From NCBI GenBank assembly GCA_944384305.1, contig CALWSW010000007.1:1-32744 (forward strand): a stretch of 32,744 nt of DNA, written 5' to 3'. The DNA comes from an uncultured Christensenellaceae bacterium. GTDB lineage: Bacteria > Bacillota > Clostridia > Christensenellales > CALWSW01. The notes beneath the pieces are model-generated. The model did no database searches, had not been told where the DNA came from, and saw only the letters and a program-made list of their open reading frames with translations. The translations under genes and the position numbers were made by a program. Below, piece after piece: positions 8,906 to 32,744 of the stretch; the first letter of the stretch is position 1; the number at the start of each line of letters is the position of its first letter.

Positions 8906-8947
8906 CAGAATACTCCTTTGGTCAAAGGATAGTTGCCCCAAAGCCAG

Positions 8948-9040
8948 CCCACTCCACATGATCTCGCTTCACTCGATCATGCGGGGGCCCCGGGCGTGGT
9001 CCTCAGCTTCGTTGTGCAAGCTCTATCGCGGGGCCCCGGG
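8948..9040 (+). repeat. Two-hairpin mobile-looking repeat unit, copy A
   Basis: The unit starts with a CCCAC flank. Hairpin 1 is CATGATC (8957-8963) with GATCATG (8975-8981) and an 11-base loop. Hairpin 2 is framed by GGGGCCCC at 8984-8991 and 9030-9037, with AGCTT (9005-9009) pairing AAGCT (9018-9022). Copies B (32131) and C (32532, inverted) keep the frame and pairing while stem letters change. It sits between the kinase terminator and the alcohol dehydrogenase ribosome site. Confidence 0.7.
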
Positions 9041-28339: not shown

Positions 28340-28926
28340 GGAGGCTTTTGCCCGGGCGACCCGCACGGGCCGCCCGGGCAAACAATAAAAAATGGCGGGG
28401 GTGGGTGCAAGGGGATTGGTGGGTGCGTAACGGCCGGGTCGGGGCACGGGGGATTCACAAGCAACGCCCTTTAACCTGCACTGCTCCCGCGACGCCGCTC
28501 AAATTCTCAAGAACTATTCGGGCTCTGCCCGAAAGCCTTGAAATTTGAACGTCTTAGGCGGGAGCGCGCGGTTCTTTTGGGCTAAGAGCATGTTCACCCC
28601 CGTGCCCCGCCCCGGCCTTCCCAGCCGCGGTGCTTGCACCCGCCCGCTGCCGCCCGGGTCAAATTTCGTATTCTCCCCACCCACCCAGCGCGGGTGCTCA
28701 GCACAGCGTTTTACCACCTTAGCATCGCAGCACCACAACCAACGCCTTACCACCCTAGCCCGCAAGCGAGGGTTGCACTTGACGGGAATAATGCAGGGCG
28801 CAGGTAACCACGGCAACGGAACCGATGCCTGGCCGTTCAGAAGAACAACGAAAAGGGGAAAGAACCCCACGGCAACTGACCGGGTACCCGGCCGTTTAGA
28901 AAGATAACCTAAGCGCAGGGGCTAAG
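28340..28926 (+). repeat. Structured intergenic block 1 (left of typA)
   Basis: No gene fits. Shared with block 2, in the same order: a 12-base-pair hairpin (28347-28358 with 28371-28382), GTGGGTGCGTAACGGCC (28419-28435), a long multi-tier hairpin (GCTCCCGC 28492 region to GCGGGAGC near 28567, with CGGGC/GCCCG at its tip), a core of about 150 bases (28642-28790) holding two ACCACCYTAGC units, and two tandem units of about 59 bases with ACGGC/GCCGT stems (28810, 28869) ending AGAAAGATAACCT. The core stretch 28712-28762 differs from block 2 at 4 of 51 bases. Strand given is arbitrary. Confidence 0.7.
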
Positions 28927-28928
28927 GG

Positions 28929-29040
28929 CACAACCAGACCCCGGGAAGCACGCTCCCGAAGCAAAATCGCCAAAGAAGCAAGGCTTTTGCGCGCAGCGCA
29001 AAAAGTTCTTGTGAACTCTGGCGATTTTGCGAGGGTTGTG
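28929..29040 (+). ncRNA. Branched, RNA-like structured element (copy 1)
   Basis: By eye: outer stem CACAACC (28929-28935) with GGTTGTG (29034-29040); hairpin CGGGA/TCCCG (28942-28946, 28954-28958); a perfect 12-base-pair stem (28961-28972 with 29019-29030); inside it TTTTGCGC/GCGCAAAA (28985-29003) and GTTC/GAAC (29005-29016). The start CAGACCCCGGGA-CACGCT-CCG recurs at 32641, where the main stem has different letters but still pairs. Transcription is not shown, and the strand is assumed. Confidence 0.45.
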
Positions 29041-29264
29041 TGCTGGAGGGTGTCGTGCCCAGCCCCGGAGCCGGTTTAGGCATCGCGGCCCCGCAGGGCC
29101 GCGAAACCCCCGCCGGGGCGGTTGGGCGGATGGTAGGGCAAGGGTGTTTGTAGAATGGCTTGCAGGGAAGTGTAGCCCGGCGTTGAGGTCGCGCAGGCCT
29201 TTTCGGCTCGTAGACGGGGTCCCCGCGCACCCGTGCCGCATTTTTGCGGCACGGGTATCTAGTC
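29041..29264. other. Hairpin-rich non-coding stretch
   Basis: No gene is seen. Hairpins are CGCGGCCC/GGGCCGCG near 29075-29094 and a perfect 12-base-pair stem ACCCGTGCCGCA (29229-29240) with 29245-29256 around TTTT. Confidence 0.5.
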
Positions 29265-29307
29265 GCGGGGGTGGTCGGAGAGCCGAACCCGGCCTGCGGA
29301 CCTCACG
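29265..29307 (+). repeat. 43-base direct repeat, copy 1
   Basis: It starts GCGGGGGTGGTCGGAGAGCC and ends GGACCTCACG; 42 of 43 bases equal copy 2 at 29420-29462. Both copies are followed by AAAAGCCTGCGGCCG. Confidence 0.8.
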
Positions 29308-29419
29308 CCAAGAAAAGCCTGCGGCCGCAGCCGCAAAAAAGAAAAAGGCCCCTTCAGGAGGGCCCCCTCCCGCTTAAAACTACAGCAACGCGCAAAAAAA
29401 CGGCAAAGAGCATCGCCTT

Positions 29420-29683: not shown

Positions 29684-29766
29684 ATCCCGGTTGAAGAACA
29701 CAGAAAAAACACAAAATCAAAGCGACCCGGCCGCAGCATCGAGTCATGAAGGAGAAAAGAACAGGG

Positions 29767-31602
29767 ATGGAAACTCGGAACGACATCAGAAACATCGCCA
29801 TCATCGCCCACGTCGACCACGGCAAAACCACGCTGGTGGACCAGCTGTTGAAGCAGAGCGGCGCTTTCCGCGACAACGAGGCCGTGCCCGACTGCGTGAT
29901 GGACTCGGGCGACCTGGAACGCGAACGCGGCATTACCATTACGGCCAAAAACACCGCCGTAATGTACAAAAACACCAAGATCAACATCATCGACACCCCC
30001 GGCCACGCCGACTTTGGCGGCGAGGTGGAGCGCATCCTTTTGATGGTAGACGGCGTGCTGCTGCTGGTGGACGCCTTTGAAGGCTGCATGCCCCAGACCC
30101 GCTTCGTGCTCAAAAAGGCGCTGGGCCTGAAGAAGAAGGCCGTGGTGGTGGTGAACAAGCTGGACCGCGCCGAAGCCCGCCCTGCCGAGGTGGTAGACGA
30201 GATCATCGACCTGTTCATTGAACTTGGGGCCGACGACGACCAGCTGGAGTTCCCGGTGGTGTTTGCTTCCGGCCGCGAGGGCTACGCCACGCTGGACCCG
30301 GACGTGTACTCCGACAATATGCAGCCCCTGTTTGAGACCATTTTGAAGGAGATCCCCGCCCCGGTGGTGGACACCAAAGGCCCCATGCAGCTGCTCATCT
30401 CCTCTTTGGATTACGACGATTACGTCGGCCGCATCGGCATTGGCCGGGTGGAGCGCGGCGAGGTGAAGATGGGCGACGCGGCCGTGCTCTGCCGCACCGA
30501 CGGCACGCGCGAAAACGTGAAGGTCTCGCGCCTGTACCAGTTCAGGAACTTGCGGCGGGTAGAGGAAAAGACCGCCCTGGCCGGCGACATTGTGGCGGTT
30601 TCGGGCGTTTCCGACATTGGCATTGGCGAAACGCTCTGCGCGCCGGACTGCGTGGAGCCGCTGCCCTTTATTAAGATCGACGAGCCCACCGTTTCCATGA
30701 CCTTTATGGTAAACGACAGCCCCTTTGCCGGCAAGGAAGGCACCTACGTGACCAGCCGCAACCTGCGCGACCGCCTGTTTAAAGAGGTGCAAACCAACGT
30801 TTCCATGCGCGTGGAAGAGACCGACTCCACCGACGCTTTTAAGGTGAGCGGCCGCGGCGAGCTGCACCTTTCGGTGCTCATCGAGCAGATGCGCCGCCAG
30901 GGGTACGAGTTTGCCGTCTCCCGCCCGCGGGTGATCTACAAAGAGATCGGCGGCAGGCGCTGCGAGCCCATGGAGCGCCTCACCATCGACGTGCCGGAGG
31001 ACTTTGTGGGCCCGGTCATCCAAAAGCTCGGCATGCGCAAGGGCGAGATGCTGGACATGACCGCCGCCGTGAACGGCTCGGTAAGGCTGGAGTTCCGCAT
31101 CCCCTCCCGCGGGCTGATGGGCTACCGCAGCGAGTTTTTGACCGATACCAAGGGCAACGGCATTATGAACTGCGTGTTCGACGGCTATGAGCCCTACAAG
31201 GGCGAAATGGAAACGCGGCAGAACGGCTCGCTGGTGGCGCACGAAACCGGCGAGGCCACGGCCTACGGCATTTTTAACTCGCAGGACCGCGGGGTGATGT
31301 TCATTTCGGCCGGCGCGCCGGTGTACGAGGGCATGATCGTGGGCGAGTGCGCCAAGGAGGGCGACATTGTGGTGAACGTGTGCAAAAAAAAGCACATCAC
31401 CAATATGCGCGCCGCCGGGTCGGACGAAGCGCTGCGGCTGACGCCGCCGGTGATTTTGAGCCTGGAGCAGTCGCTGGAGTTCATTGGCGACGATGAGCTG
31501 GTAGAGGTGACCCCCAAGAGCATCCGGCTGCGCAAGCGGATCCTGAACAAAGAGCAACGGCTGAAGATGAAGAGCCGCATGGAAGCTGCCGCGGCTGAAT
31601 AA
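29767..31602 (+). CDS. typA: Ribosome-associated GTPase TypA/BipA
   Basis: The 611-residue product is a full TypA/BipA translational GTPase. It has AHVDHGKTT (G1, 14-22), RGITI (G2), DTPGH (G3) and NKLD (G4), an EF-Tu-like domain 2 (VGRIGIGRVERGEVKMGD), EF-G-like domains III and V (GRGELHLSVLIEQMRRQGYEF; PSRGLMGYRSEFLTDT), and the family C-terminal domain ending in a Lys/Arg helix. It aids 50S assembly and growth in cold or stress. The ATG at 29767 gives the conserved start METRNDIRNIAIIAHVDHGKTT, with AAGGAG 12 bases upstream; an in-frame ATG at 29746 would overlap that site. It is flanked on both sides by related structured non-coding blocks. Confidence 0.96.
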   Translation: METRNDIRNIAIIAHVDHGKTTLVDQLLKQSGAFRDNEAVPDCVMDSGDLERERGITITAKNTAVMYKNTKINIIDTPGHADFGGEVERILLMVDGVLLLVDAFEGCMPQTRFVLKKALGLKKKAVVVVNKLDRAEARPAEVVDEIIDLFIELGADDDQLEFPVVFASGREGYATLDPDVYSDNMQPLFETILKEIPAPVVDTKGPMQLLISSLDYDDYVGRIGIGRVERGEVKMGDAAVLCRTDGTRENVKVSRLYQFRNLRRVEEKTALAGDIVAVSGVSDIGIGETLCAPDCVEPLPFIKIDEPTVSMTFMVNDSPFAGKEGTYVTSRNLRDRLFKEVQTNVSMRVEETDSTDAFKVSGRGELHLSVLIEQMRRQGYEFAVSRPRVIYKEIGGRRCEPMERLTIDVPEDFVGPVIQKLGMRKGEMLDMTAAVNGSVRLEFRIPSRGLMGYRSEFLTDTKGNGIMNCVFDGYEPYKGEMETRQNGSLVAHETGEATAYGIFNSQDRGVMFISAGAPVYEGMIVGECAKEGDIVVNVCKKKHITNMRAAGSDEALRLTPPVILSLEQSLEFIGDDELVEVTPKSIRLRKRILNKEQRLKMKSRMEAAAAE

Positions 31603-31699: not shown

Positions 31700-32530
31700 G
31701 CTTTTTGACCGGGCGGCCAAGGGCCGCCCGGTCAGGGAGAAGGGTGATGAGGGGGAGCGGGCAGGGGTAAGAGGGGAGTGGGTGCGTAACGGCCCTTGGG
31801 CGGTCACAGGGGTTCCCCGCGACTCTTCCCGGGGGCTGCGCCCCCAGTACGGTCTGAATGCGGAGTCACCCCCCGTGCCCTGCCCCGGCCTAACAGCCGC
31901 CCAGCTAACCCCAGCCCGCTGCCGCCCGGGTCAAGTTTCGTTATCTGCCCACCCACCCAGGGTGGGCAGTTTTCTGTCGTTTACCACCCTAGCATTGCAG
32001 CAGCACAACCAACGCCCTACCACCCTAGCCCGCCAGCGCGGGTGCCACTTGGCGGCGTAATTCCAGCAAAGGAGAAACGAGCTCGAAGTGGTCAAAAGAG
32101 AATCCGCCCCGGCAGACCCACCCCACACAACCCACCCCAGAACCCGCCCCACACAATCTCGTTTCACTCGATTGTGCGGGAACCCCGGGTGTAGTCCTTC
32201 CGCTTCCATAGCAAGTTCCATCCTGACGGGGCAGGATGGAACACGAACGCGGGGGCCGGGGGGAGAACGAAGAAGCAGCGAACGGAATTTGTCCAGGAAG
32301 TACACTTCCTGTTGGGCAGAAACAGGGGAGAAATTTGTCGAACCAAGGCCGGGCAAGGACGGCTGAAAGGGCAGAAGGCTCCTTCAGAAAGACCACGCAA
32401 GGCACAGGAAACAACGGCAGATGAAACGGTACCCGGCTGTTCAGAAGACCAGCGGAAAGGGTAAAGAGCAGCAACGGCAGCTGAACAGGGACCCGGCCGT
32501 TCAGAAAGATAACCTGAGCGGAGGGGCTGA
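31700..32530 (+). repeat. Structured intergenic block 2 (right of typA)
   Basis: Related to block 1 at 28340. In order: a perfect 12-base-pair hairpin (31707-31718 with 31722-31733), GTGGGTGCGTAACGGCC (31778-31794, identical over 17 bases), a hairpin with GGGGGC/GCCCCC tip and GACTC/GAGTC base (about 31830-31886), the core (31914-32056) with two ACCACCCTAGC units, and units of about 56-60 bases at 32359, 32415 and 32475 with the AACGGC stem, ending AGAAAGATAACCT. Unlike block 1, it carries two-hairpin unit B in its middle. No gene fits; strand is arbitrary. Confidence 0.7.
32131..32262 (+). repeat. Two-hairpin repeat unit, copy B (diverged, inside block 2)
   Basis: CACAATC (32152-32158) pairs GATTGTG (32170-32176) with the same 11-base loop size as copy A; A has CATGATC/GATCATG, so two pairs changed on both sides. 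Downstream, an 11-base-pair stem (32215-32225 with 32232-32242) replaces the second hairpin, then GCGGGGGCCGGGG. It is absent from block 1 at the matching place. Confidence 0.6.
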
Positions 32531-32531
32531 A

Positions 32532-32623
32532 CCGGGGCCCCCGCGATGGAGTTTGTGCCTGCGAAACTGAGGACCACACCCGGGGCCCCCAACATTTTCT
32601 CTACGAGAAAATGTTGGGGTGGG
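32532..32623 (-). repeat. Two-hairpin repeat unit, copy C (inverted)
   Basis: Read on the minus strand: a CCCAC flank, a perfect 15-base-pair hairpin (32587-32601 with 32605-32619, loop TAC), then the GGGGCCCC-framed second hairpin with AGTTT/AAACT (32550-32554, 32564-32568), where copy A has AGCTT/AAGCT. It separates the end of block 2 from the branched element, which are adjacent in block 1. Confidence 0.7.
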
Positions 32624-32640
32624 TTTTTGGGGTGGTATGG

Positions 32641-32744
32641 CACATTCAGACCCCGGGAGCCACGCTGCCGCGCCAAAACCGGACAGCGCCCAGGCTTTCG
32701 AGTACGGCGAAAACAGCGCTTACCTACTCTGCCGTAATTTTGGG
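32641..32744 (+). ncRNA. Branched, RNA-like structured element (copy 2, 3' end outside window)
   Basis: The 5' part (CACATTCAGACCCCGGGAGC, then CACGCTGCCG) matches copy 1 at 28929. CCAAAA, CGG and CAG on the left can pair with CTG, CCG and TTTTGG at 32728-32743, with an inner TTTCG/CGAAA hairpin. The letters differ from copy 1 while the shape is kept. The window ends inside it. Confidence 0.4.

Follow-up and report, generated by a model that had tools for sequence, protein, structure and literature searches.

Palindromic arms on either side of typA belong to a modular intergenic repeat family, probably of mobile hairpin DNA

The long palindromic arm that precedes typA in this uncultured Christensenellaceae bacterium is, at a probability that we put at about 0.6, part of a modular family of intergenic palindromes that behaves as mobile hairpin DNA, spreading and diversifying in a REPIN- or GC-cluster-like manner. 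The repeats are modular in anatomy, their stems are complementary even where they differ from one another, and their folding is asymmetric between strands. A sister hairpin unit is found only in intergenic DNA, occupies some equivalent points and is missing from others, and is spread across families. The window, meaning the whole stretch of DNA analyzed, is the entire 32,744-nt contig C7 of a 2.07-Mb MAG (186 contigs, 80.6 per cent complete). Named genes in it encode TypA, UvrC, HPr kinase, and a PBP1A-type protein, and a scan found no tRNA or tmRNA in the window. The typA gene occupies positions 29746–31602; the first copy of the arm (copy 1) lies in the intergenic space before it and the second (copy 2) in the space after it.

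Anatomy of the arm and its array

From the outside in, copy 1 consists of GGGGCT/AGCCCC (28918–28923 pairing with 29061–29066), GGGCAC/GTGCCC, GACCCC/GGG.GTC, a stem in the GCACGCT region, a perfect 12-bp main stem (28961–28972 with 29019–29030), an AAGGC/AGTTCTT section whose 3′ side has a bulged A and T, and, at the apex, an 8-bp stem closed by a 3-nt loop. Its folding energy is −74.3 kcal/mol, compared to −50.6 kcal/mol for shuffled sequences (z = −5.44), and none of 200 shuffles reach it; the tight arm has a z of −7.6, and the pairing of the end arms was equaled by 0 of 2000 shuffles. Both the outer stem and the perfect 12-bp stem named in a preliminary description of this DNA are present in the fold, far beyond what shuffles produce. 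That description also had the element as branched, with two hairpins enclosed by the main stem. We rejected a branched fold, as the minimum-energy structure forms one extended, bulged arm that ends in one apical hairpin. The element is also longer than the roughly 110 bases (28929–29040) first proposed, with GGGGCT/AGCCCC and GGGCAC/GTGCCC closing outside of that interval.

The arm lies inside an intergenic repeat of about 1.3 kb, as one of its internal domains; the repeat occurs in about six places. The domains follow each other as a 5′ hairpin, a long arm (28432–28617), blocks with TTTACCACCCTAGC, tandem CGGCAACTGA units, the arm studied here, a TCGC..GCGA hairpin, and another long arm. As far as each copy reaches, this order is collinear in the second array of the window (C7b), in C12 and C160 (both on the minus strand), in C140, and in contig L023. 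The supposition that the arm is a terminal module is therefore wrong, since collinear domains continue past it to about 29340. In the TCGC..GCGA hairpin, 100 per cent of cells are paired in five copies, and its covariation is 0.556 versus 0.269 in shuffles. Domains are nested and exchanged as well: inside the sister arm, the core recurs on the minus strand in a different frame (28503–28545), and in C12 the base frame GGGGGGTGACTCCGCATTCAGACC holds an arm of the type studied here and in C7b it has a short hairpin instead, while the equivalent place in the first array of the window (C7a) and in C160 has another frame with, again, the same core. The features of the window are listed in Table 1.

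Table 1. Palindromic features of the window, with coordinates and the evidence for each.
Feature	Coordinates	Strand	Basis
Array C7a, with the arm as an internal domain; ends approximate	28340–29340	+	Repeat comparison and folds
Sister long arm, base frame GGCCGGG...CCCGGCC	28432–28617	.	Folds and core model
Copy 1, one long bulged arm	28918–29066	+	Folds; outermost GGGGCT/AGCCCC read from sequence, also in a fold
Variable main stem GCAAAATCGCCA / TGGCGATTTTGC and all that it encloses	28961–29030	+	Own arms best-pairing; 0 of 2000 shuffles
Conserved core AAGGC, 8-bp stem, 3-nt loop, AGTTCTT	28980–29010	+	Eight genome copies, one in L023
TCGC..GCGA hairpin, immediately 3′ of the arm	29083–29104	+	Covariation in five copies
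Next long arm GGCGTTGAGGTC...GACCTCACGCC, with GGGGTCCCC hairpin at its tip	29180–29308	+	Fold; C140 and C78 have this arm too
Array C7b, second copy of the repeat after typA, truncated by the contig end	31690–32744	+	Repeat comparison and folds
Tip exchange, base frame GGGGGGTGACTCCGCATTCAGACC with short hairpin	31816–31886	−	Sequence read against C12
GGGG hairpin, opposite orientation	32142–32189	−	Hairpin scan
GGGGCCCCC hairpin directly ahead of copy 2, an insertion that separates GGGGCTGA from GGCACA	32579–32624	+	Hairpin scan; filled and empty points
Copy 2, with its 5′ frame, a degenerate core, and no 3′ half because of the contig end	32639–32744	+	Fold and shuffles
Lone GGGG hairpin elsewhere in the window	8947–8994	−	Hairpin scan

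Two side observations concern the surroundings of the arrays. C7a and C7b form direct repeats on either side of typA, and deletion or duplication of typA could therefore be favored. A tyrosine recombinase gene (PF00589; L012:3155–4009 in G000:C12, minus strand) adjoins the C12 array; this association was seen at that array only, and an integron-like site was rejected for this reason.

In copy 2, the 5′ segment CAGACCCCGGGANNCACGCT is kept, as described earlier, in an exact repeat at 32647, and it recurs at four further sites in the genome. The pairs CCAAAA/TTTTGG, CGG/CCG, and CAG/CTG that had been read in its main stem exist, but end-arm pairing is as good in 109 of 2000 shuffles (about 5 per cent). 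What remains of copy 2 folds no better than shuffles (z = −0.06; z = −0.25 in a second test, with +0.59 for the core). Because C7 ends at 32744, copy 2 is not extendable in place. Contig C78, which begins with 49 nt at 96 per cent identity, may continue copy 2, the adjacency being putative. If it adjoins, C78 would supply the GTGCC that closes the outer stem of copy 2 and would also put an inserted GGGG hairpin into its 3′ half.

Shape and letters among copies of the arm

A BLAST search gave seven matches in the genome. A model of the core found eight core copies there, including copies 1 and 2, and one more in L023 (nine in total), although the model was built from the same sequences and its hits recover them by construction. 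A ninth match in the same genome, on C19, was rejected, being a GGGG hairpin with no core copy. Across 297 genomes of the order, the core model gave only two weak matches beyond the bacterium's own genome, neither with the shared frame, and no true match came from scans of IMG/VR, nor any match from plasmid and phage records. Among the 10 stretches returned by a pattern scan of genome contigs, only L023 (CALXCC010000104.1) has the repeat around the motif; the others look like chance motif matches lacking the frame. L023 belongs to a foreign genome bin and is filled with these repeats; it may be misbinned, because the repeat was found on no other contig of that genome.

The intact arms keep their fold while their letters differ. 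Five of them besides copy 1 have z between −5.7 and −8.6, and all six fold more stably on the plus strand than as the reverse complement. Their main stems (AAAATCGCCA, CCGCTCAAAT, GAACGGCCAG, and GCAAATCCG) differ yet are complementary. When arms were swapped among five intact copies (5 × 5), the copies' own pairs summed to −242 kcal/mol, compared to a permutation mean of −162 kcal/mol, ranking first of 120. The covariation score of the eight distinct cores is 0.257 versus 0.103, above all shuffles. In a family-wise test no single column pair of the arm is significant, a test that is underpowered because there are only eight copies. The claim that shape is conserved over letters thus holds for the family, in which own arms pair best and covariation is in excess; the covariation expected with it is seen in the score as a whole and in the sister GGGG hairpin, though not in any individual pair of the arm, an outcome that the preliminary description had counted as refuting and that comes from low power.

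The GGGG hairpin as a sister unit

As the arm itself has few copies (nine), most of the statistical support comes from this sister unit, GGGGYCCCC-stem-3 nt-stem-GGGG, which has 73 matches in the genome, several of them within arrays. Its stems vary widely but pair, with a covariation of 0.464 versus 0.195 for shuffles in this genome and 0.562 versus 0.184 in a cross-family alignment. Significant column pairs are stem pairs in six of six cases within the genome and in seven of eight across families, under a null that ignores the relatedness of copies. Distinct hairpins in this genome are mostly 33 or 35 nt long, their loops are usually 3 nt, and 29 of the 33 odd-length ones have a GNA loop. 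G.T pairs outnumber A.C pairs, which detection treats alike, by 40 to 4 here and by 45 to 2 in other genomes. This excess suggests that the hairpin folds from one of its strands, whether RNA or ssDNA, although most of the excess is due to a single conserved wobble beside CCCC/GGGG and may therefore partly be sequence conservation.

None of 48 checked copies falls in a called gene, though 75 per cent of the sequence is coding (genes were called by a simple codon-usage script). Relative to co-directional neighbor genes, the hairpin is in the same orientation five times and in the opposite orientation nine times. Filled and empty versions of the same repeat point were seen, between paralogous places in one genome. 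The hairpin also occurs in other families of the order. Among 391 genomes of the class 21 have it, and among 398 of the phylum 10 do (the bacterium's own genome being counted in each). Both matched 5S rRNA genes of the complete, one-contig genome G752 contain a GGGGTCCCC hairpin (L235, C1:2131967–2132007; L238, C1:2233523–2233563), which sits as an expansion segment in the region of helix III. Another genome of the same phylum, G776, has 14 hairpin matches (e.g. L240 and L246), with copies like CCCGGGGTCCCCGCGCACATGTGCGTGGGGTGGG and flanks similar to those seen here. At three loci of other genomes (L197, L202, and L208), duplicated pieces of tRNA genes (Thr, tandem Ser, and Glu) surround the hairpin, and an intact tRNA is adjacent.

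Mobile palindromic DNA and alternative explanations

Conserved frames, compensated stems, nesting, tip exchange, presence and absence, and intergenic-only location together fit mobile palindromic DNA. Under the mechanism that we propose, small units, each a hairpin whose end frames are conserved (GGGGYCCCC...GGGG; CAGACCCCGGGA...AGTTCTT...GGGTGTC) would insert beside or into existing hairpins, and tip exchange by recombination, together with insertion, would build arms of 150–200 bases and more. A putative trans-acting factor would read one folded strand (ssDNA or RNA), and stems would stay complementary as letters drift or swap. We infer that the units move at all, that ssDNA is what folds, and that an enzyme mobilizes them. 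Searches of the 81-per-cent-complete genome gave no match to a Y1 transposase (PF01797), with controls detected, and found no reverse transcriptase; a Y1 transposase gene may lie in the missing part. The failure to find either enzyme speaks against mobility, as does the lack of a defined target-site duplication or of exact unit ends, and the filled and empty points are paralogous places rather than different strains.

In REPINs, which are mobile DNA, the ends are conserved and the hairpin spacer between them is compensated (PMC3116915), and REP palindromes are preceded by a conserved tetranucleotide foot, most often GTAG (PMC8266576). The repeats described here resemble the RAYT-mobilized REPIN/REP-BIME elements in being short multicopy intergenic palindromes with single-strand folding and unit mosaics (PMC3116915; PMC8266576). 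The GGGG hairpin has conserved ends around a length-constrained, compensated hairpin spacer, and it has the many intergenic copies of a REPIN (73), whereas the arm has only eight in the genome. Unlike in REPINs, the aligned frames read NNCGGGGYCCCC without a GTAG foot, the arms are nested and far longer, tips are exchanged, and no Y1 transposase was detected. Because of the absent foot and the lack of a Y1 match, we do not claim membership in REPIN/REP. Yeast mitochondrial GC clusters are likewise gene-less, structurally constrained palindromes, or double-hairpin elements, whose units merge and shuffle (PMC4478555). Merging and shuffling under structural constraint are also found here, in tip exchange, nested arms, and own-arm pairing that is the best of 120. 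The likeness is one of structure, and the setting differs, as the units here are on a bacterial chromosome and reach collinear arrays of 1.3 kb. Clostridial 5S rRNA genes carry inserted hairpins, and similar motifs have been noted in intergenic regions (Stepanov and Fox 2021, PMC7812874); the hairpin in both 5S genes of G752 is comparable, and the motif may be the same. More speculatively, the hairpins (GGGGYCCCC-stem-GGGG and relatives) might be a new class of gene-less mobile elements across one phylum that move as a folded single strand by a non-Y1 mobilizer, grow giant arms inside hairpins, and enter structured RNA genes such as that of 5S rRNA, a proposal that we regard as rather unlikely to hold in full.

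The strongest competitor is a large structured non-coding RNA of about 1.3 kb with multiple arms, whose fold RNA-level selection would keep in some six diverged copies, with the arm as one functional domain. It would account for the collinear domain order in all copies, the covarying stems, and the preference for folding one strand, with G.T pairs. The preliminary description had likewise taken conserved shape as the mark of a functional RNA. This does not follow, because REPINs (PMC3116915) and GC clusters (PMC4478555) share such constraint; REPIN DNA is also compensated, and the hairpins here are intergenic without consistent orientation. A scan against Rfam 15, at gathering and permissive thresholds, gave no credible match for the window or the array. 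Between 28150 and 29760, no sigma-70-like promoter was found on the plus strand, and the only one detected is on the minus strand, directed away from the array. Furthermore, the copies adjoin unrelated genes in both orientations and have swapped or lost tips and even base frames, and one of them, copy 2, is degenerate. Judged from sequence features, an RNA function of the array is possible, but we consider the large-RNA explanation improbable, at perhaps one chance in four.

Complementarity could also be renewed by replication template switching and arm-to-arm correction, without selection or a mobilizer. Template switching can copy one arm onto the other and so mimic compensatory change, and the usual 3-nt loops and the nested, recombined arms agree with such an origin. 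A mechanical process of this kind would not be expected to yield conserved frames, a near-fixed hairpin length, or GNA loops at the frequency seen, nor the asymmetry of G.T over A.C and the same frame in other families, and we hold it to be a distinctly poor candidate. Least plausible of all, to the point of being nearly dismissible, are cis-acting elements of neighboring genes, such as transcript-end or RNA-stability hairpins: some hairpins of other genomes (L197, L199, L208, and L210) do lie behind tRNA genes in the same sense, but there is no orientation preference in the bacterium's own genome, and hairpins also occur between divergent genes.

A folded shape that is kept while its letters change probably fits a family of small mobile hairpin DNA better than a dedicated RNA gene; within one genome, such a pattern need not imply an RNA gene. 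The arm also draws attention to a hairpin repeat that is widespread in clostridia-like bacteria and apparently enters other hairpins and 5S rRNA genes. If the reader of the folded strand were identified, one could test how 5S expansion segments and giant palindromic intergenic arrays arose.
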